Assembly: GCA_029210805.1 (NCBI GenBank)
Contig: JARGGA010000005.1
Location: 1-32,797 of the forward strand
Source: Candidatus Thorarchaeota archaeon
GTDB taxonomy: Archaea; Asgardarchaeota; Thorarchaeia; Thorarchaeales; Thorarchaeaceae
Length of the DNA: 32,797 nt
Reading direction: 5' to 3'
Each line of letters opens with the position of its first letter. Position 1 is the first letter of the stretch. Under the pieces are notes generated by a model, which had not been told where the DNA came from, did not search any database, and saw only the letters and a list, made by a program, of their open reading frames with translations. The translations under genes and the position numbers were made by a program. Shown here in pieces: positions 7,860 through 32,063 of the stretch.

Positions 7860-10800
7860 TTATGACTCTCCGAGCTCCTCAATGACTTCTTCGAGTTCGC
7901 TTTCCAATACTTCATCCAGATTTGCGATGCGCTCTTTCATCTCTTTTACTTCTGCTTCAATCAGATTTCTAATCTCCTCAATGGAGTATACCGATATACT
8001 CTCTACAGCATCATATAGAAAGACTCCATCAGCTACCTTTTCTCCCTGTTCATCCCTTACTATCCACTTTAAACAATCGTATTCCTCATACACCCTCAAC
8101 TGCAAGGGTCCAGTTCCGTCCTCATCTTGTGGATCATCGCACGAATTAGATAGGCCGAAGGAATCAAGTGCTTCCTTGAATTGTCTGTTAGCATCTTCTT
8201 CATTAATGATATTGAAACACGAACTCCACTCATGACTAAACAAATCACTGAATCCCTCTTCGACCTTCTCTCTTGTATCGGTCTTATCAATATCAAAAGA
8301 TTCCCTTCTTATCTCTAGACTCCTTATGTCACTATCTAGACTGAGTATGACAGAATATTGTGAGTCTGTATATTCAATTGTTACTTCGCAGGGCGGACTG
8401 GTCACTCCAAATCCGTCAGCCTCGAGAATTTTAGTCAGTCTTTTCTCAGCTTCTTGTAGGTTATTGATCTCATCAAGAGTGATTCCAACGCGCTCCAGAA
8501 TAAGGGTCAGAATTCGTCCTTTCTCCTCTTTCAGGTCATTGGTAAAATCAAATTCATAGGTGGTGTAGAATGGATGAAAGGGTTTCCCTGTTGCAGTTGA
8601 GATAGCATACCATCCAACCTCTCTCTTACCACTTGTAATAGATACAACCCATTCTTCCTCCTCAGCTCGAAGATAGGACCCTGGTGGGACCGAAGAGAGA
8701 ACATGGTCAAACTCTCTAAGAAGGAGTCTGATCCATTTCTCCTCTTGAAAGACCATGCACTCAGGAGTATCTGCTTTGTGACTGAACGATACCTCAAGTT
8801 TGTAGAGTTTTCCACTCCATATGCATCTTGGTGCAAGAAGGCCATGTATCTCTCTTCCTGTCTTGTACCCATCTAGCTGTCGCTCCAATCTCTTTGGAGC
8901 GTCTGCTGGGAGTTTGATATACCAACACGCACCATGTTCGTCCTCTTTCCCAAGGGCAATCGGACAAACAGACTCATCATGCTCAATCTCTACTGTGAGT
9001 TCCTCAGCATCCTCGAAGAATTGAGAAACCCTACTAGGGAGTTCCTCTGGAGTTGCCCTGGTTGCGCTAAAGATGATATATGGTCTGAGAAAGTCAAGAT
9101 TTGAGTACTTAATATCATCAAATACATTCCATGTCACATACTCGCCTGCATCTGTGTACATTGGCCCCGCATGAATCATAGGCCACCTGAGGAGTCTTAG
9201 CAGGTCTGGAACTGACTCATGTTCAACCTCCTGAAGTATGTCACCATCTTTGTCAACAAAGGCCACCCTGCAGACATCTTCTTCTCTCTCTAGCAGCACA
9301 CTAATGGAGATTGGAGAGGTTACTGAATTTAGGTAGCGCCTCAGAGCATCTGAAACACGTTGATAGAATTCCTCTGGGAGTCTGAAGTCTAATGGAGGTT
9401 CAGTAATGGATTGGGCTTCAGTTAGTTTGATGCCTTGTAGTTGACTGACTGAGGAATATCCTTTGCGTATCACTTCAAGCAGTCCTCCAAACTCTCTGTC
9501 ATCGTTATCAGGGTCTATGAACCATACCTCAAGTCCCTGTTCGGTTTCCCTACATGCAATAATGACTTGCTTGTATCCAAGAATATCATCTAATGTCTGT
9601 TGTACGAGAATCTCTTGTTTGGTTTCAGCCCAATATTCATCTTCTTTAGAAGGTCTGTTCGAAAAACAGCCCACCAACATCCTTGAACTTTTCTTTGGAT
9701 CTTGAAGGACCGTCCACCGATGAGTGCCAGTTTCTCCCGATTGGAACTCGATGCCTAGCACCCATTCAGATTCAAGTTTTTCTTCAATGACAGAGGCGTC
9801 TGAGATCAGTTCAGGAGCTTCACTTCTCTGTCTTGGTCTAGTCTGTAGTTTCAATGGCGAACGATAGAGACGTTGTGAATTGATCCTTCCAAGTGTCATG
9901 GCAACGTAAGCCTTACCGGACCTAATGTCTGGCTGTCGAAATCGTAAGAGGGCGAGTGTACTGGGTCCTATACTTGGAGGATTATCAGTGGTTTCCACAG
10001 AAACGATAACGTCCTCTGGACTACCCTTGAACTCCTGTATCAGTTCATCATACTGCTCTTCAAGGGTCTTACTTAGTTCGCCCAGAAACTTGTTCTTAGG
10101 ATTGAGCCTAACAATATATGGGATGAGTGTGAGAGCCAGAAGTTTCATCCTCTCACGAAGGTCTTTTTCAGGAAAGGCATTCTTTTCAGTCCTCTCTCTG
10201 TATACTAGACCACTTCCCTGATTCTTGAAGCGTTTTGACCATCCCTGTAGTGATGGAATAGACTCGAATCTTATGTCTACTTTCTCACGAGTATGTGTGA
10301 CAATCAATCGAATATCATCATATATTGGAGTATCACCAATACTTGGCAATGTCCATTTCTCAGGTTCAACTGCACTCCTTGGAGGGGAAGGTAGATTCCA
10401 GACTACCTCAGTCGTGTACTCTGCTAGTGACGAGGAAGAGTAGTATGGTAGTAAAGCTCTGGTCGCATACGGTATCGATTTCTCAGCAGAGGGAACTGGT
10501 GAGTCAAACCACAGGACAGTGGTATCATCTTCATCAGGAAGACTTGCCAGTAGTCTATCCAGAATAATCTGGAGTTGGTTTCTATGGGTTTCTGGAGTGG
10601 CATTCTTGAGTACGTCAATTCCGGATACAACGATAACTAATGGCCTGTCAGGCTCTTTCTCGATATCAAAGGTTGGTTCAAGACCATCATCATATAGATG
10701 GGAGAGAATGCTATTGAGATGAGCCTTGACCTCTATCTGTTCAAAGAAGTTACGAATGTGATCATAGTGTGCCTTTACCTCTTCTTCTGGAGTGCACCTC

Positions 10801-12770
10801 CTAGGCCTTAGACGCAATCGAGCCTCTGCCAGTTTTGGTTCAACGAACTGGTCTGCAAGATCAAGCCACAGAAACCTCGCATTGGGGATATTCATCTTCA
10901 TCTGATACAGTATCTGCAGTCCATGATAGTTTCGTGCGTTGTAGGCAGCTGAGGTTCCAGCAGATGTAGGGGACTCTCCTGTGAGATAGAGGATAAACCG
11001 CCTATCAGACTCCTCGTTCTGGTGAAAGGGATTGTAAGGTGGGCTCCAGGGTGATTCAACTCTCTTGCTTTGAGATTTCCTTAGAACTCTCTGTTTGTGA
11101 ATAACAAGAACAACTTTACAATCGGAATCATTTGATGGAGTGATGATGGTTCTTTTTACATTCCCCTTGATTTTCTTGAGAAACTCATATGCCTTGATAA
11201 CAAGTCCCTCAATGATTCGTCTAATCTGATTGATGTCTGTGATTGCCTCGATCATTATCGTGGCCCTGAATACATGGGCGGTTTCTTCTCCCGTGACCTC
11301 CTGAAATCTCTGAGCCAGTGCCTCTGCATAGATTGCGACCTGTGTTCGAGCGTTCTTATAGGGAGTAGAATCGACTATCGATTTCCATTCTTTCTCTTCC
11401 AGCGACCTATCCTGAAGAGGAAACTCAGCTATAACACGTTGAGGAATTCCATCTGTTCCTCTTGATTCTGATGCCTTTTGTATAGCATCAAGATACCACT
11501 TGTGTCCCATTCGTGTCTTGATCTCACAAGCTAATGCAGGTCGATAGAGTGCCTTTTTTCCATCCGTTGTCACAACTCTCTCCAGAAGTGTGATGTCCAC
11601 CTTCCCTCTTCCTGAGTCTGTATCCAGTGGTACTTCAGAAACAATGAGATATTCAGAGGATCTTGTGTATTCATGTCCCTGAAAGATGGCATCCCTCAAA
11701 TCCCAAGGGGTTGGAAAGAGATTCTCTATCCTCCGATGCATGATTGATCCTTTTAATTGACCTCTTTTGATTGCTTGCTCTCTTATGTATTCAACATCTT
11801 TCACTGTAATACATGGCTCGATAACACCAGGCGATCTGTAGAAGCCCGTCTGTTTGAGTCGTTTTATTTCCCGCAACACTGGAGAATCTCCATACAACTG
11901 AAGGAATTCATCATATTGAACATCAGTAAAGTCTATAGAAACCTCTCCCTGATCATATTCAAGAGTGCTAGTGACGCTCCTATCCACCCTCATGGTAGGT
12001 TGATATCCAGCATCTGTGATCAGATCTTTTACTTTGCCAAGGGCTTCAATTATTCCATTCCTGAACCCAAGTCTTCCGCAGTTGTACTCTGAATAGATGT
12101 GTTCCAGATAGGGTCTTGTCAGAAGCAGTAGGAGATTACTATAACGAGAAGTTTCCCTTTCTGGCACATCATGAATTGTACAAAATGTTGCAAGATACTC
12201 ATTGTGGCTTCTTGCTGCATCTCCAAAGTCCAATGAAGGAAGGTCTGGATGGGAGAGAATCACTCTAGGACCAAAGGATGTCCCCTCATATCCTGCTACA
12301 CGGAACTTCCTCCTCTTTACACCATCTCTCCGAGTTCTTGTTCCAAATTTGATCGACTTAGGGAGTGGAAAGTCCATCTCAGAAAACTCTCTCAGGTTGG
12401 CACCACAGATATTCTGTCGTGCATTATGAGGTCCTACTGTACCATCCGAGTTCCTTTGCCTCTGAACTTCTGTAAATCCAAACTCAGCCGCTTTTTCATT
12501 CAGCATCTTGAGATTGTTATCTCTGATCTGCGGCTCAGCCTTTAGAATATAGGAGTAATCAGGGTTTCCTCGTTCTTTAGTGAGGAGATATACCTGACGG
12601 GCAATCTTCCAGATTTCATCCGAGCTTCTGTAGTGTTTCGATGTTGTCTTGTTCTTGATTGCCCTCTGTAGTTGCACTGTTGAAGAGAGACCTGTCTGCA
12701 TTGCGATAGAGATTACTCTCTCTGGATGTATGGGGAGTGGTCGTGCAGGTCGTCCTCTTCGTCTTGGCAT
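7860..12770 (-). CDS. Giant protein with RecB/Cas4-like PD-(D/E)XK nuclease domain, 1636 aa
   Basis: This intact gene encodes a protein of unknown role. Residues 1-340 begin very basic (MPRRRGRPAR) and have no clear known fold. At 340-490 is a RecB/Cas4-type nuclease signature in order: G341-x3-H345, E379, D392 in GKVDIT, E416-x-K418 in CEIKTR, and Q477-x3-Y481 in QVAIY. These are the metal-binding and catalytic residues of that family. From about 590 to 760 there is an alternating strand-helix region: LYLTGESPTSAGTS, FLWLDL, VIVVSGIDV, TVLWFDS. It resembles a RecA/KaiC-like core but lacks the Walker A lysine. The remaining 850 residues are unrecognised and end in an acidic coiled-coil-like tail. 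No signal peptide or membrane segment is seen. The ATG at 12770 follows a TATA-like GTTAAATA by about 27 bases. A frameshifted paralog lies at the window start. Nuclease activity is inferred from motifs only. Confidence 0.85.
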   Translation of the reverse strand: MPRRRGRPARPLPIHPERVISIAMQTGLSSTVQLQRAIKNKTTSKHYRSSDEIWKIARQVYLLTKERGNPDYSYILKAEPQIRDNNLKMLNEKAAEFGFTEVQRQRNSDGTVGPHNARQNICGANLREFSEMDFPLPKSIKFGTRTRRDGVKRRKFRVAGYEGTSFGPRVILSHPDLPSLDFGDAARSHNEYLATFCTIHDVPERETSRYSNLLLLLTRPYLEHIYSEYNCGRLGFRNGIIEALGKVKDLITDAGYQPTMRVDRSVTSTLEYDQGEVSIDFTDVQYDEFLQLYGDSPVLREIKRLKQTGFYRSPGVIEPCITVKDVEYIREQAIKRGQLKGSIMHRRIENLFPTPWDLRDAIFQGHEYTRSSEYLIVSEVPLDTDSGRGKVDITLLERVVTTDGKKALYRPALACEIKTRMGHKWYLDAIQKASESRGTDGIPQRVIAEFPLQDRSLEEKEWKSIVDSTPYKNARTQVAIYAEALAQRFQEVTGEETAHVFRATIMIEAITDINQIRRIIEGLVIKAYEFLKKIKGNVKRTIITPSNDSDCKVVLVIHKQRVLRKSQSKRVESPWSPPYNPFHQNEESDRRFILYLTGESPTSAGTSAAYNARNYHGLQILYQMKMNIPNARFLWLDLADQFVEPKLAEARLRLRPRRCTPEEEVKAHYDHIRNFFEQIEVKAHLNSILSHLYDDGLEPTFDIEKEPDRPLVIVVSGIDVLKNATPETHRNQLQIILDRLLASLPDEDDTTVLWFDSPVPSAEKSIPYATRALLPYYSSSSLAEYTTEVVWNLPSPPRSAVEPEKWTLPSIGDTPIYDDIRLIVTHTREKVDIRFESIPSLQGWSKRFKNQGSGLVYRERTEKNAFPEKDLRERMKLLALTLIPYIVRLNPKNKFLGELSKTLEEQYDELIQEFKGSPEDVIVSVETTDNPPSIGPSTLALLRFRQPDIRSGKAYVAMTLGRINSQRLYRSPLKLQTRPRQRSEAPELISDASVIEEKLESEWVLGIEFQSGETGTHRWTVLQDPKKSSRMLVGCFSNRPSKEDEYWAETKQEILVQQTLDDILGYKQVIIACRETEQGLEVWFIDPDNDDREFGGLLEVIRKGYSSVSQLQGIKLTEAQSITEPPLDFRLPEEFYQRVSDALRRYLNSVTSPISISVLLEREEDVCRVAFVDKDGDILQEVEHESVPDLLRLLRWPMIHAGPMYTDAGEYVTWNVFDDIKYSNLDFLRPYIIFSATRATPEELPSRVSQFFEDAEELTVEIEHDESVCPIALGKEDEHGACWYIKLPADAPKRLERQLDGYKTGREIHGLLAPRCIWSGKLYKLEVSFSHKADTPECMVFQEEKWIRLLLREFDHVLSSVPPGSYLRAEEEEWVVSITSGKREVGWYAISTATGKPFHPFYTTYEFDFTNDLKEEKGRILTLILERVGITLDEINNLQEAEKRLTKILEADGFGVTSPPCEVTIEYTDSQYSVILSLDSDIRSLEIRRESFDIDKTDTREKVEEGFSDLFSHEWSSCFNIINEEDANRQFKEALDSFGLSNSCDDPQDEDGTGPLQLRVYEEYDCLKWIVRDEQGEKVADGVFLYDAVESISVYSIEEIRNLIEAEVKEMKERIANLDEVLESELEEVIEELGES

Positions 12771-20070: not shown

Positions 20071-21642
20071 TCAGTCCGAATCGTCCTTAATAATCTGTTT
20101 CAGGATTTTTGAAATTGCATCCCATTCTAGATTTGTTTTCTTCATGAGCGTGTGTACGGCCTTGTGACAAGATTGGCATAGCGCTACCCATTCATCAGGA
20201 TTCAGTGATTCTAGGTTCTCTTTGGTCCATAGAAGGCTACGATGGTGAGGTTTTCCATCCTTCTTATGGATGAGTTCCTTTTCGAAATCACATATATTAC
20301 AGCTGGTACCAAAGATGCTCTCTCGCAATTCATCAATACTTAGACCATCAAATTCCCTAGGCTCCCACCCCATCTTCCGGAGAACTCTACGAATTGGATG
20401 GTGGGTTTTGAATCCGAAATATTGTCCAATTTCATTCAAAGACATCTTCTCATCATAATATAATCTGAATACCACATCGGGGTCCAATTCTCTCTTGGGG
20501 TCCCAACCTTCTTCTTTGAAGATACGACCAATTGTTCTTGGTGAGCAATCTAATTGTTCAGAGATCTCTTCCATTGTCCACTTTTCATCAAAGAATAAAC
20601 TGTATACCTCTTCGCGGTTTATTCCCTTCCCTTTGGGGCGAGTTTCCCACCCCTCTTGTCTGAAAATGCGTCGTAGTGAATTCCCATTCTTCAATCCTAA
20701 ATGGTCTGCTACTTCTTGTAGCGTGAGTTCTTTATCAAAATATAATCTATATACTTCCTCAGAATCGATTTCCTTTTGAGGAACTGAATGGGGACGAGAA
20801 GTCCACATCTCTTCAATAAATATGCGACGAATTGGAGCTATCGAGCACCCAATAAGGTCAGCTATCTTTTGCATTGATAAATTCTCATCGAAATAGAGAT
20901 TGTACACTTCCTCTCTATCTATTTCCTGTTTTAGAGAGCGGACTTCCCAATCTTGGTTCTTGAAAGCTTGTCGTATAGAGAAACTAGATTTGAAACCAAA
21001 GTGATTAGCAATTTCATTCATTGACTTTCCTTCTTCATAATATAATCTGTGTGCATCCTGTAGTGGTACATCTTTGATATCCGAGCGGAACTGCCAACCA
21101 TTTACTTTGAACAGTCGGTTAATTGGGCTTCTAGAGATTCCCAGTTTTTTTGCAATTTCATATGATGATAGACGCTCATCAAAATATAATCTATGAATCT
21201 CTTCTGAATCCAGCTCTATTTTTGGGTGAGAACTCGGTCTTGCTTCCCAACCGTTGATTTTGAAAATGCGCCGAATTGGATTCTTTGTTCTAAAACCAAA
21301 ATGCGCAGCTATCGCTTTCATTGATTTGTTCTTGTCAAAGTATAGACTTCGTACTTCTTGAGTGTCAATCTCCTTTGCTGCTGTTCGAGTGTTCGTGGTT
21401 TCAACATCTATCTCTTGTTCAAACACCTTGTATTTTTCGAATCTCCAACCATGTTCATCAAACAATTCTTGGATTCGTTCTTTATCTGCGAACTTCTTAG
21501 CAATATCCCCCAGAAACAAAGATTCCTTATCGTAGATACTATCTCCTTTCTCCTTTTCCGAGCTTGACCACCGATACCACCTACCCACACGCAAACCGAT
21601 TCCCAAGTGGCGTAGCCCCACATTGTAGTGGGGGCAAGTCAT
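20071..21642 (-). CDS. Tandem helix-turn-helix repeat protein with C-terminal HNH nuclease
   Basis: The 523-residue protein has seven clear repeats of about 50 residues (91-140, 141-190, 191-239, 240-289, 290-338, 340-384, 385-432) and a weaker one at about 36-73. The shared pattern is EEVYRLYFDE, then a helix-turn-helix (LSMxEIAxHFG, xxPIRRIFK), then GWExR. Residues 433-500 hold an HNH-type domain: C448 and C451, H459 in LIHKKDGKPHHR, H466-H467, C489 and C492 followed by H493 and H497. The likely role is a site-specific DNA endonuclease, possibly a homing enzyme, with an unusually long array of DNA-binding modules. It lies 57 bases upstream, on the same strand, of the tRNA-Ser-like half, which suggests a mobile element associated with a tRNA. 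The start is uncertain: a CCCCAC/GTGGGG hairpin lies within the first codons. Confidence 0.8.
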   Translation of the reverse strand: MTCPHYNVGLRHLGIGLRVGRWYRWSSSEKEKGDSIYDKESLFLGDIAKKFADKERIQELFDEHGWRFEKYKVFEQEIDVETTNTRTAAKEIDTQEVRSLYFDKNKSMKAIAAHFGFRTKNPIRRIFKINGWEARPSSHPKIELDSEEIHRLYFDERLSSYEIAKKLGISRSPINRLFKVNGWQFRSDIKDVPLQDAHRLYYEEGKSMNEIANHFGFKSSFSIRQAFKNQDWEVRSLKQEIDREEVYNLYFDENLSMQKIADLIGCSIAPIRRIFIEEMWTSRPHSVPQKEIDSEEVYRLYFDKELTLQEVADHLGLKNGNSLRRIFRQEGWETRPKGKGINREEVYSLFFDEKWTMEEISEQLDCSPRTIGRIFKEEGWDPKRELDPDVVFRLYYDEKMSLNEIGQYFGFKTHHPIRRVLRKMGWEPREFDGLSIDELRESIFGTSCNICDFEKELIHKKDGKPHHRSLLWTKENLESLNPDEWVALCQSCHKAVHTLMKKTNLEWDAISKILKQIIKDDSD

Positions 21643-22442: not shown

Positions 22443-24713
22443 ATGACTAGCAGACCCAAGACATCGATTTCCTTTGTTTTCGGAAAGAGACAACGTATGA
22501 TGGATATGATGTTGGTACTTGGTGGACTCAAAGAGGAAGCTGCTGTTCCCCTTAGCAAAGTAAATGAAGAAATTTCGAAATTAAAACAGGAGATTGAACC
22601 CCTCACAGCAGAGATTCTTGAATTTCCAGAGAGATACTTCCAAGCATTCTTTGATACTGCAAAGAAAGCAGGTCTTGGAAATTCACTCTCCGATAGAGGT
22701 GTTCTTACTGAATCTATAGGAAACCTTGAGTCTGCACTTTCGAATGGAGATTCATCAGCGTTAACGGGCCTACTTGAAGTTCTGAAGACTCGCCTTGATT
22801 CTATGTCAGAGAAAGAAGATGCTTCCCAAGATAGTTCAGTGGGAGATGTATCTGCAATTCTAAAACCAGTAGTGGGCCTAATTTCTAATATTCAAGCAAG
22901 TATAAACAGCTTTGAGGAGAAGGCAAAAGCAGACGAAGAAGAAGCAATGAAAGAATTAGAGTCACTAACAGATTCCTTTGCCTCATTGACTTTGGACCTA
23001 AATTCAGACCCAGATGCCTCATTGGCAGAACTACAGAAGTTGGGAACCAACACCCGATATGGTCCATTTCTTCGAATAGCAGCACAGCTAAAAAGAGGAA
23101 AAAGGGATGGGAGAATAGATGATGCCCGTTTCGGGGACTTGATTCGTACAAATCTTCTTCTGGAACTTCGTCGTGGTATCATCATGTTTGTGCTGGGAAA
23201 AATGGGATCTAAAACAGCTGTGCAATTAGGTGAATCTATGGGAATATCTCCTAAGGATGTACAGAATGCCATTGTTAGCATGATTGGCAGAGGCGAAGTG
23301 GAGATGGTCGGACTTGATGGCGATGCTCCTGTCTTTGCGCAAGTTCTTACCAAAACACCAGACACAACACTTGTTGTGAAACGTATCGTTCAGCAGCTTC
23401 GGGGTATCGTAAAGACCCTAGATGAGTCCAGTAAATCGACCGTCCAAGAACCTCTGGAGCAACTTGAGGGTGTTCTTGAGCGACTTCAGTTATTGGGAGC
23501 ATATGATGAACCTGCTCTCTCTGAGCCAATAACAAATCTCCGAGAAGTTGTCGAAAAGGCTACAGAAGCGGCTATAGGTTCAGGATCTTCTGAAGACTCG
23601 AAGGAACTTCGTCTTCTGGTATCAGCAGGTCTTGAAGCCTTTACAAGATTCAGATTGAAAATCACACTTGAGAAAGGACCCAACTTGGTTTCTGGTCTCA
23701 ATGTCTACGGAGAGCAGCTCGATCCAGAGAAATACAAACAGATTATGGACAATTATCTAGATAGCGAGCTTGAGAGAGGCACACTGCTCATTCTAATCAG
23801 GGAAATTGGAGCAATGACTGCAAAGGATCTTGCTGAAAAGTCTAGGATTCCGCAAGATAGGATTTTACAACACCTGCTACGGATGAAGCGCGATGAATTG
23901 CTGACAATTGCTGGCGAAGACCATGGGTATGTTCTATATGATGTTCCTAGAACACTGAATGAAGCGGAAATTGCAATTCAGACTGCCTGCAATCTGGCAT
24001 CTTTGACTGCCCAAGCCAAGACCGAGCTTCAAGAAATTCTCTCCGATCTTAGGCCTGATACAATTGGCAGACTTACAGGCGCCCTTGAAATCTTCTCTAG
24101 GTCACGTGATAAGATGGAAACAATCACGATAGATGGAACAGTAGTTGGTAATGACATTCTATCTAGCGTGGAAGAAACAATCAAGTCATCAGTTTCAATG
24201 GGCTATCGTACTCGAGCGCGACTCCCAAGCACACGACCCAAAGTCACTATCGATGACCTGCTGGATGTTGATGTCCCATCAGTACTGGAGGAATATCGAG
24301 GTATGATGGGATATGCTCCACTCCTTGGATTTGGTACGATTGAATGGGATTACGCAAAGTGTGTTGGGTGCAAGTCATGTGAAATTGCATGTCCGGAGGA
24401 TGCTATCGAGCTTAAACCGGTTATCGACATACCCAAGTTCTTTGAATTGACAAACGAGGAGATTGAAAAACAACTTGTGAACAAAGGAATGTTCTACAAG
24501 ACTGTAAGGTCTCTTGCCACAACCAAACCAACTTCTCAAATCAAACTTGGTGAAGAAAAACCAGGGTTTGGAACAGTTGAAGTCGATCTCTGGCTCTGTG
24601 TTGGATGCAGAACTTGTGTAAGACGTTGTCCAGGAACAGAGGGAGGCGCATTGGAACTGGACCTCAAGTGGAACCTTCCGGAAGTTGTCAGGCATCTCGT
24701 TTCGCCGAACTAA
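22443..24713 (+). CDS. Fe-S protein with two helix-turn-helix-like segments and a C-terminal 2x[4Fe-4S] ferredoxin, 756 aa
   Basis: This is not a family I can name. The first 240 residues are helical with coiled-coil character. Residues 240-300 and 441-500 look like two copies of a winged-helix domain: each has ELRRGIIMFVLGKMG or ELERGTLLILIREIG, then KTAVQLGES or MTAKDLAEK, and a recognition-like helix. The C-terminal part has two full cluster motifs: C640, C643, C646 with C650, and C719, C722, C725 with C729. It could be a redox-responsive regulator, or an electron carrier with an enlarged scaffold. Its place 89 bases before an acyl-CoA dehydrogenase and downstream of the hdr cluster supports a part in that electron pathway. 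GGAGG at 22431-22435 lies seven bases before the ATG. Confidence 0.75.
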   Translation: MTSRPKTSISFVFGKRQRMMDMMLVLGGLKEEAAVPLSKVNEEISKLKQEIEPLTAEILEFPERYFQAFFDTAKKAGLGNSLSDRGVLTESIGNLESALSNGDSSALTGLLEVLKTRLDSMSEKEDASQDSSVGDVSAILKPVVGLISNIQASINSFEEKAKADEEEAMKELESLTDSFASLTLDLNSDPDASLAELQKLGTNTRYGPFLRIAAQLKRGKRDGRIDDARFGDLIRTNLLLELRRGIIMFVLGKMGSKTAVQLGESMGISPKDVQNAIVSMIGRGEVEMVGLDGDAPVFAQVLTKTPDTTLVVKRIVQQLRGIVKTLDESSKSTVQEPLEQLEGVLERLQLLGAYDEPALSEPITNLREVVEKATEAAIGSGSSEDSKELRLLVSAGLEAFTRFRLKITLEKGPNLVSGLNVYGEQLDPEKYKQIMDNYLDSELERGTLLILIREIGAMTAKDLAEKSRIPQDRILQHLLRMKRDELLTIAGEDHGYVLYDVPRTLNEAEIAIQTACNLASLTAQAKTELQEILSDLRPDTIGRLTGALEIFSRSRDKMETITIDGTVVGNDILSSVEETIKSSVSMGYRTRARLPSTRPKVTIDDLLDVDVPSVLEEYRGMMGYAPLLGFGTIEWDYAKCVGCKSCEIACPEDAIELKPVIDIPKFFELTNEEIEKQLVNKGMFYKTVRSLATTKPTSQIKLGEEKPGFGTVEVDLWLCVGCRTCVRRCPGTEGGALELDLKWNLPEVVRHLVSPN

Positions 24714-27356: not shown

Positions 27357-27422
27357 CTGATTCACATCAAAGTGCCACCACGACAAGAAGCTTAAAAGGC
27401 ATTTCAAATGGACTGAAGAAAC

Positions 27423-27439
27423 AGGTCAAATAATGACCT
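27423..27439. promoter_or_regulatory. Inverted repeat before tRNA-Ser
   Basis: AGGTCA (27423-27428) and TGACCT (27434-27439) are perfect arms around AATAA, ending seven bases before the tRNA. The centre is AT-rich but too close to the tRNA 5' end to be a normal TATA box. It may be a regulator site between archaease and the tRNA, or a hairpin at the 5' end of the precursor. Confidence 0.3.
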
Positions 27440-27446
27440 ACAAAAA

Positions 27447-27594
27447 GCCGAGGTAGCCAAGCCCGGATTACGGCGCCGGTCTTGAAAATCGGAGTGTTCT
27501 ACACTCCTAGACCAGGTCAACCGGTATCTTCGGATGCATGAGTTCAAGGGCTTTGACATTTCGTCAAGTCGAACACATCTCATCCTCGGCGCCA
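27447..27594 (+). tRNA. tRNA-Ser(UGA) with two introns
   Basis: Acceptor GCCGAGG pairs perfectly with CCTCGGC, followed by discriminator G and CCA (27592-27594). The D arm is GCC/GGC with a GG-containing loop. The anticodon stem is CCGGT/ACCGG and the loop CTTGAAA has anticodon TGA. Intron 1 (27487-27518, 32 bases) is at the usual 37/38 site, with a CTTG/CAGG central helix between three-base bulges. Exon 2 supplies the long variable arm TATC-TTCG-GATG typical of serine. Intron 2 (27548-27576, 29 bases) interrupts the T loop between bases 58 and 59: GTTC/GAAC forms the central helix between AAG and ACA bulges, and removal restores ATGAG-TTCAAAT-CTCAT. The mature tRNA is 84 bases plus CCA. Both introns fit the bulge-helix-bulge rule of archaeal tRNA splicing. 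Confidence 0.92.
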
Positions 27595-27614: not shown

Positions 27615-28184
27615 TTATACTTCATTATATCTGAAACAGTCAACTGTGTGGTCGTTTACCATTCCAGTTGCCTTCATATGTGCGTAGACAATGGTTGATC
27701 CAACAAATTTGAAACCTCTTCGTTTCAAATCTTTGCTAATCTTGTCAGATAGTTCTGTGGTTGCAGGAATCTCCTTAGTAGACTTCCATTTGTTCACAAT
27801 AGGCTTTCCATCAACAAATCCCCAGATATAATTGTTAAAGGATTCAAATTCTTTCTGCACTTCAAGAAACGCTTTAGCATTTGTAATCGCAGATTCAATT
27901 TTGCTCCGATTCCTAACAATTCCACTGTTTGTCATCAGCTTCTCAATTTTCTTTGCATCATACTTTGCAATTTTCTTTGCATCAAAATTGTCAAAAGCTA
28001 GTCTATAGTTTTCGTGTTTCCTCAGAATCGTGATCCAACTCAACCCAGCCTGAAATCCTTCGAGCAAAAGGAACTCAAATAGCATCCTGTCATCATGAAC
28101 AGGAACTCCCCATTCCTCGTCATGATATTTTACGTAAAGTGGATTGTCCAGAGGTACCCAACTACAACGCTTTTTCTCTACCAT
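27615..28184 (-). CDS. tag: DNA-3-methyladenine glycosylase I (Tag)
   Basis: This base-excision repair enzyme removes 3-methyladenine from alkylated DNA. The 189-residue product has the family start CSWVPLDNPLYVKYHDEEWG, and LEGFQAGLSWITILRKHENY with the likely catalytic E42. The zinc site that locks the ends together in Tag is complete: C7, H21, H179, C183. The ATG at 28184 is preferred over a TTG 12 bases upstream. Tag is mainly a bacterial family, so this copy may have come by transfer, although its base use is like its neighbours. It ends 21 bases after the tRNA-Ser and faces it. Confidence 0.95.
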   Translation of the reverse strand: MVEKKRCSWVPLDNPLYVKYHDEEWGVPVHDDRMLFEFLLLEGFQAGLSWITILRKHENYRLAFDNFDAKKIAKYDAKKIEKLMTNSGIVRNRSKIESAITNAKAFLEVQKEFESFNNYIWGFVDGKPIVNKWKSTKEIPATTELSDKISKDLKRRGFKFVGSTIVYAHMKATGMVNDHTVDCFRYNEV

Positions 28185-28255
28185 TTTCTCTACCAAAAAC
28201 GATGGTTTATCCTAGAGAATATAAACAATTTCCAATTCCTACTAACCTAATCACA

Positions 28256-29215
28256 TCAAGTGAAGATTGATTTTGGAAGAACTGCTCTCACTCCAGGAGT
28301 GATATCAACAAGCTGACTGATTCTCATGTCAACAGCACAGCTACAAAGGGCATATGCTTCCTCACGGGTTAGTCCTTTTTCAGCAACCAACCACTCAATC
28401 ATATCCCTTAGAGCAATTCTTGCTGCATCCTCAGCCGTTTCACCCCAAGCAGTGGTCATGAAATGCTCATCCGTTTCATATTGGGGACGTTCTATTTTCT
28501 TGGTCTTATTGACTACAAGCCTTATTGTAACATCTGCATCAATTTCTACTGCTGTACCACAGACCTCGCCGTCACCTTGAACTGCATGAACATCACCAAC
28601 ACCAAATAGAGCTCCTTCAACAAAGACTGGTAGATAGACAATGGTACCAGCAGTGCAGGCACGTGAATCCATGTTGCCACCATATTCTCTTGGAATAAGA
28701 GTGCCCTGAGAACCTTCAGCTGGTGCAACAATCAGAGTGCCCGGAAAAGGATCTATAGGAATCTTCACTTTTTCACTAAAAACAGCCTTTCCATCTTCTA
28801 TTGGGATTATTCTAGTCCAAGGTTCAGGAAATTCAGAAGCAAGATACCCAAAGTTTGGGATTATACAACAAGATCCTTGTTTTGCAACATCAATGTCCAG
28901 AATGTGGACTTCTAAGGTATCTCCGGGTTCTGCGCCTTCAACATACACTGGACCTGTTGCAGGATTTATTCGTTCCATATCGAAGTTGATTGGTAAATCC
29001 GTAGATTTCTGAATTGTCTGATTGAAAGCATCCCGGCATTCAAAAACAACTGTTTCTCCTGTTTGTATTCTCAAAACCGGAGGGTTGCTACTATCAGCTT
29101 TGAAGACTACATCCTTCATACTCACTCGGTGATACTTCCCATCGTTCATTTTCATCACTAATGACGAAGAATATGCTGGAATTAAGTATTCCCAGAAACC
29201 TGCTTCCAAACTCAT
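28256..29215 (-). CDS. Acetamidase/formamidase family protein
   Basis: This 319-residue protein belongs to the FmdA/AmdA amidohydrolase family, which splits formamide or acetamide to ammonia and the acid. Family blocks seen are PATGPVYVEGAEPGDTLEVHI, the GGNMDSRACTAGTIVYLPV stretch and GALFGVGDVHAVQGDGEVCG. The metal or active-site residues sit in the latter two. The start is uncertain: ATG 29215 is used, but the first 20 residues are not conserved, and the ATG at 29155 would give 299 residues. No Shine-Dalgarno is seen at either. An inverted repeat at 29230-29247 lies just before the gene. Substrate is unknown. Confidence 0.9.
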   Translation of the reverse strand: MSLEAGFWEYLIPAYSSSLVMKMNDGKYHRVSMKDVVFKADSSNPPVLRIQTGETVVFECRDAFNQTIQKSTDLPINFDMERINPATGPVYVEGAEPGDTLEVHILDIDVAKQGSCCIIPNFGYLASEFPEPWTRIIPIEDGKAVFSEKVKIPIDPFPGTLIVAPAEGSQGTLIPREYGGNMDSRACTAGTIVYLPVFVEGALFGVGDVHAVQGDGEVCGTAVEIDADVTIRLVVNKTKKIERPQYETDEHFMTTAWGETAEDAARIALRDMIEWLVAEKGLTREEAYALCSCAVDMRISQLVDITPGVRAVLPKSIFT

Positions 29216-29229
29216 CTTCGACAAGAAAT

Positions 29230-31830: not shown

Positions 31831-31856
31831 CATGATTGACTCCCGAAAGTTCTTGA

Positions 31857-31970
31857 TGGCGGCCATAGGTTCCAGGATTTACCTGATCTCGGCTGAACTC
31901 AGAAGTCAAGTCTGGAATCGTTGACGGAAATGTGCGCTGCGCGAGCGCGTGACAAGCCGTTAAGCTGCCA
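31857..31970 (+). rRNA. rrf: 5S ribosomal RNA
   Basis: Helix I pairs TGGCGGC (31857-31863) with GCTGCCA (31964-31970). The archaeal start GGCGGCCATAG is followed by the conserved loop CCTGATCTCGGCTGAACTC and AGAAGTCAAG. Helix II pairs GTTCCAG with CTGGAAT. Helices IV and V are in ACGG, a GTGCGC/GCGCGT arm and CCGT. The ends may extend by a few bases, as usual lengths are near 120. A pyrimidine-rich tract follows and probably ends transcription. The gene stands alone, away from 16S and 23S. Confidence 0.9.
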
Positions 31971-32063
31971 CTTTCTTCTTCTTTCATTATCGATTGTCAA
32001 ATCTTTGATTTGAAGAGAGTAAACTCCTACCTTCTCATAGTCTGATAGCGATTGTGGAATCAA

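Follow-up and report, generated by a model that had tools for sequence, protein, structure and literature searches.

A Thorarchaeota tRNA-Ser(UGA) gene with predicted introns in the anticodon and T loops, and recurrence of the T-loop intron among Asgard archaea

The window analyzed here is the whole stretch of 32,797 nucleotides that makes up contig C492 (JARGGA010000005.1) of a Candidatus Thorarchaeota archaeon, whose assembly is a MAG of 4.03 Mb in 699 contigs (93% complete, 5% contamination). On its forward strand, it carries a tRNA-Ser(UGA) gene predicted to be interrupted twice. Exon 1 (27447-27486) covers positions 1-37, with the anticodon TGA at 27483-27485, and is followed by intron 1 (27487-27518, 32 nt) at the canonical site 37/38. 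Exon 2 (27519-27547) comprises positions 38 to 58 and holds the long variable arm and the 5' half of the T arm. Intron 2 (27548-27576, 29 nt) lies at the T-loop site 58/59; it contains an inner hairpin in 27549-27570 and a GAAC at 27571-27574 that pairs with G53UUC56. Exon 3 (27577-27594) supplies positions 59-76, including the discriminator G and an encoded CCA. Upstream on the same strand, GAAGCTTAAAAGG at 27387-27399 is a likely BRE/TATA promoter, a function deduced from conservation, as GAAGCTTAAAAG is present upstream of the gene in all 30 family orthologues compared. A small hairpin, AGGTCA-AATAA-TGACCT, was also observed in the 5' leader just before the tRNA (27423-27439, forward strand), with no evident counterpart in the orthologue leaders shown.

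Splicing out both introns gives an 87-nt tRNA-Ser(UGA) with encoded CCA, and ARAGORN identified this product, GCCGAGGTAGCCAAGCCCGGATTACGGCGCCGGTCTTGAAAACCGGTATCTTCGGATGCATGAGTTCAAATCTCATCCTCGGCGCCA, as tRNA-Ser(tga). The spliced sequence presents the cloverleaf, the anticodon UGA, the long variable arm TATCTTCGGATGC and the CCA expected for this isoacceptor. When the T-loop intron alone was removed, ARAGORN with option -i recovered the 32-nt intron 1 at the same place. The program reported no tRNA in the unspliced gene, nor after removal of intron 1 alone. Across the whole window, ARAGORN and Rfam reported no tRNA, and Rfam at a permissive threshold gave no match on the gene itself. The boundaries proposed in an earlier note on this DNA, namely removal of 27487-27518 and 27548-27576, are thus correct to the base according to ARAGORN and the orthologues, and its remark that standard finders often miss such genes is borne out, the intact gene escaping both ARAGORN and Rfam. 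A strict tRNA parse (7-bp acceptor stem and CCA, 5-bp T stem and TTCR, 5-bp anticodon stem, U33) matched once in the window, at this gene, and never in 300 dinucleotide shuffles, which together with the orthologues rules out a chance resemblance to a tRNA.

The orthologue set was obtained by a DNA search of 149 relatives followed by a parse of the loci. The 36 family tRNA-Ser(UGA) genes comprise 8 with neither intron (L047, L048, L051, L053, L059, L155, L157, L158), 15 in which the 37/38 intron stands alone, 8 that have the 58/59 intron but not the other one (L039, L040, L044, L045, L054, L055, L057, L163) and 5 with both (the window gene, L032, L036, L037, L038). Intron 1 is therefore missing at site 37/38 from the 8 intron-free genes and from the 8 with the T-loop intron only. 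As intron states differ inside single genera, both introns come and go; as orthologues without introns show uninterrupted sequence at these places, both junctions are fixed.

Around the gene, RNA methyltransferase, archease and tRNA-Ser(UGA) follow one another in this order across the family, the archease (PF01951; 26922-27407, reverse strand) being the divergent neighbour of the tRNA. The tRNA-Ser(UGA) gene shares 89% identity with its counterpart in G045 (genus g6), which has both introns; the gene of the same-genus genome G002 is devoid of intron 2, and its intron 1 is a different one. These data could mean that the tRNA segment, or the contig as a whole, comes from another Thorarchaeota genus, which we consider rather unlikely and which would bear on the history of the gene, not on its identity. 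The neighbouring archease, indeed, is closest to that of G002 (73%, versus 62% for G045), so the contig is not simply misbinned. A transfer or conversion of a short tRNA segment is possible.

On the other side of the tRNA, two genes, one for a tag glycosylase and one of the FmdA/AmdA family (27615-29224, reverse strand), stand between the tRNA and Elp3; tRNA-Ser(UGA) and Elp3 are close neighbours in several relatives. The tag gene shares 88% identity with one next to tRNA-Ser in G026, its protein shares 81% with a protein of Candidatus Thorarchaeota E44_bin77, and its best matches outside Thorarchaeota are mostly bacterial. That the 3' end of the tRNA serves as the attachment site of a mobile element was considered and rejected, the window containing no second copy of this 3' end.

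Placing the second intron between bases 58 and 59, as first proposed, agrees with the pattern at base 59 in the orthologues. The base following position 58 varies (G, A, T or C) and the base preceding T60 is almost always A; intron-free T loops read TTCAAAT or TTCGAAT, likewise with A before T60. A junction one base further on (59/60, intron 27549-27577, T loop TTCAAGT) would correspond to a T-loop site listed for archaeal introns and permuted tRNAs (PMC4090602, PMC3218864), but it would make base 59 variable where the orthologues, with and without introns, have an almost invariant A before T60. It appears less consistent with the orthologues than 58/59, which moreover cuts both bulges after their second base, and we regard it as very improbable. 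The 58/59 junction is used below. Also, in family f21, tRNA-Ser(CGA) carries a 31-nt insertion at 58/59 (L161, L162).

Both introns had been credited with bulge-helix-bulge (BHB) features. This character is supported, with the reservation that the motif of intron 2 is a relaxed BHB and not a strict one, because its 3' bulge is about 5 nt. Intron 1 folds with a central helix CUUG:CAGG and a 3-nt 3' bulge UCA, cut between UC and A. It fits the description of an archaeal BHB tRNA intron, which calls for site 37/38, about 4 bp of central helix and bulges of 3 nt, in a relaxed form, since its 5' side opens into an internal loop. Intron 2 has a 4-bp central helix, G53UUC56:GAAC, and a 5' bulge of 3 nt. 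G53UUC56 pairs at 4 of 4 positions in all f1 genes examined, with GAAC, GAAU, GAGC or GGAC as intron partner, and in all family genes examined the paired G53UUC56 lies next to a covarying hairpin and, at the 5' site, to a bulge of 3 nt. An unconstrained fold of the whole precursor gave no clean cloverleaf with two BHBs.

The pairing in intron 2 is conserved and shows compensatory changes. In 13 sequences aligned by MAFFT alone, 8 of the 9 intron-helix pairs change on both sides; over the whole structure, 10 pairs do so, with 36 double-change cells versus 11.8 in shuffles. With 46 genes, 198 double-change cells were counted versus 58.3 in shuffles, in an alignment that was fitted to the model and so leans towards the structure. 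In these comparisons, the helix of the T-loop intron covaries strongly.

The type of splicing endonuclease, proposed as a check by the earlier note, was read from the encoded proteins: a two-subunit EndA is predicted, its alpha subunit bearing a crenarchaea-type loop lysine. EndA genes (PF01974) are present in 45 of the 45 genomes searched, with two in G000. The alpha subunit (L173:681-1325) is closest to A. pernix EndA 3p1z, which it resembles along its length, and the catalytic Y, H and K are conserved in it. Its loop GIRKPKS aligns with DVEKPRG of A. pernix (K44) and GISKPKS of S. tokodaii; a crenarchaea-type specificity loop occurs in all 13 Asgard alpha subunits aligned and is missing from M. 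jannaschii. The beta paralogue (L174:1740-2384) is devoid of the catalytic histidine. The alpha and beta paralogues and the K44-equivalent lysine are those expected of an (alpha-beta)2 EndA with the crenarchaea-specific loop. RtcB is encoded in the host genome; archeases assist the RtcB ligase. In A. pernix EndA, the loop lysine is needed for broad specificity (PMC6379350).

We consider it very probable that this locus is a functional, single-copy Thorarchaeota tRNA-Ser(UGA) gene, whose two BHB-type introns would be spliced by EndA, RtcB and archease. A heterotetrameric (alpha-beta)2 EndA, made tolerant of relaxed BHB motifs by its crenarchaea-type loop, would cleave the pre-tRNA at both 37/38 and 58/59, and RtcB with archease would join the exons. 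From sequence, we infer expression and splicing of the tRNA, the order of the cuts, and the activity and assembly of EndA. A second intact tRNA-Ser(UGA) gene, which the note had named as a finding that would speak against its reading, was sought in the 93%-complete host assembly and not found; the lack of another Ser-UGA gene is likely but not certain because the genome is incomplete. That the 58/59 insertion marks a dead pseudogene while another gene serves UCA codons is hardly credible: redundant eukaryotic tRNA copies with T-loop insertions are often taken for pseudogenes (PMC4090602), but here the exons form an intact tRNA with full stems, the intron helix is under pairing selection, the promoter is conserved and this is the sole Ser-UGA gene found in the genome.

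Two covariance models, R1 and R2, both match intron 2 at 27538-27583, and R1 finds further T-loop introns. After removal of the T-loop intron, ARAGORN reported a tRNA in 31 of the 36 R1 cases inspected. The tRNA types concerned include Ser, Leu, Lys, Thr, Val, Ala, Pro, Tyr and Arg, some isotype calls by ARAGORN -i being uncertain. One R1 match, L233, proved on inspection to be no tRNA and was put down to chance. The host genome itself has a second T-loop intron, in tRNA-Pro(CGG) (C650:6912-6958, L217), and its tRNA-Ser(GGA) gene (L153) shows, by inspection, inserted sequence in both the anticodon loop and the T stem. As a separate observation, at least 9 intron-free tRNA genes were reported by ARAGORN on one strand of contig C338 of G000 (L175:380-1450), which also carries ORFs resembling IS607/TnpB, IS200 and a CCA-adding enzyme. 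The cluster contrasts with the intron-rich tRNAs elsewhere and is possibly a contamination or a mobile element.

A covariance search allowing non-canonical introns, as suggested beforehand, revealed recurrent 58/59 introns in Asgard genomes. R2 matched 105 of 227 Asgard genomes, including 39 of the 47 in the host family, versus 4 of 398 Thermoproteota genomes, a contrast that concerns this intron shape and not T-loop introns overall, because R2 was trained on Asgard sequences, its E-values are rough and the number of candidates scored differed among searches. The 4 Thermoproteota matches look like true T-loop introns, and none of 36 other non-Asgard genomes was matched by R2. The description of 58/59 as a rare site known mainly from Thermoproteales is thus misleading, given the Asgard host and these counts with an Asgard-trained model. 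The T-loop introns of the Ser-UGA and Ser-CGA genes in G031 share 93% identity, introns of different tRNAs averaging 47-51%; this likeness suggests copying between tRNA genes. Such copying is reported for Thermoproteales in PMC4090602, which cites Fujishima 2010. It may be that a 58/59 intron of one shape (about 29-31 nt, with GAAC facing G53UUC56) has spread through Asgard tRNA genes, being repeatedly gained and lost and at times copied within a genome, in parallel with an EndA that has the broad-specificity loop, and that Asgard tRNA inventories miss such genes; we give this proposal even chances.

Asgard tRNA genes with T-arm introns, and with more than one intron, have been published before. 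An intron in the T arm is reported for a tRNA-Sec of Lokiarchaeota (PMC5330540), an Asgard tRNA as here, though of another isoacceptor. In Atabeyarchaeia and Freyarchaeia, 92-95% of tRNA genes have at least one intron (PMC11291895); non-canonical and multiple introns occur there as in our host, in other Asgard lineages. The multiple-intron tRNA genes of Thermoproteales similarly combine canonical and non-canonical BHB introns in one gene, T-arm sites included. The present gene differs by its Asgard host and by its site, 58/59 being missing from the archaeal T-arm sites reviewed (53/54, 56/57, 59/60), a list that ends in "etc." (PMC4090602). Thermofilum pendens has permuted tRNAs with a join at 59/60 (PMC3218864). 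They share BHB processing in the T loop, but their gene order is permuted, there is no intron and the site lies one base away. We found no description of T-loop introns in Thorarchaeota in the literature searched, of which coverage was incomplete.

As T-arm, non-canonical and multiple tRNA introns were already published for Asgard archaea, the gene is a sound example of an ordinary mechanism; and as 58/59 introns recur in many Asgard tRNA genes, it is a good example of a known phenomenon and not an oddity. The added interest lies in the recurrence of site 58/59 among Asgard archaea. Essential tRNA genes in these genomes can escape ordinary tRNA searches. Also, orthologues with neither, either or both introns constitute a dense natural series for tracing intron gain, loss and copying, and the association of intron load with the specificity loop of EndA is extended to the archaea thought closest to eukaryotes.

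Elsewhere in the window, a 5S rRNA gene was detected at 31855-31973 on the forward strand (Rfam RF00001, 55 bits). A 756-aa ORF on the same strand (22443-24713) has a 4Fe-4S ferredoxin domain at its C terminus and weakly matches TrmB/MarR-like winged helices. On the reverse strand, a 1636-aa ORF (7860-12770) is without any Pfam match, and a 523-aa ORF (20071-21642) is built of helix-turn-helix repeats, which match sigma-70 region 4 as well as other HTH families.
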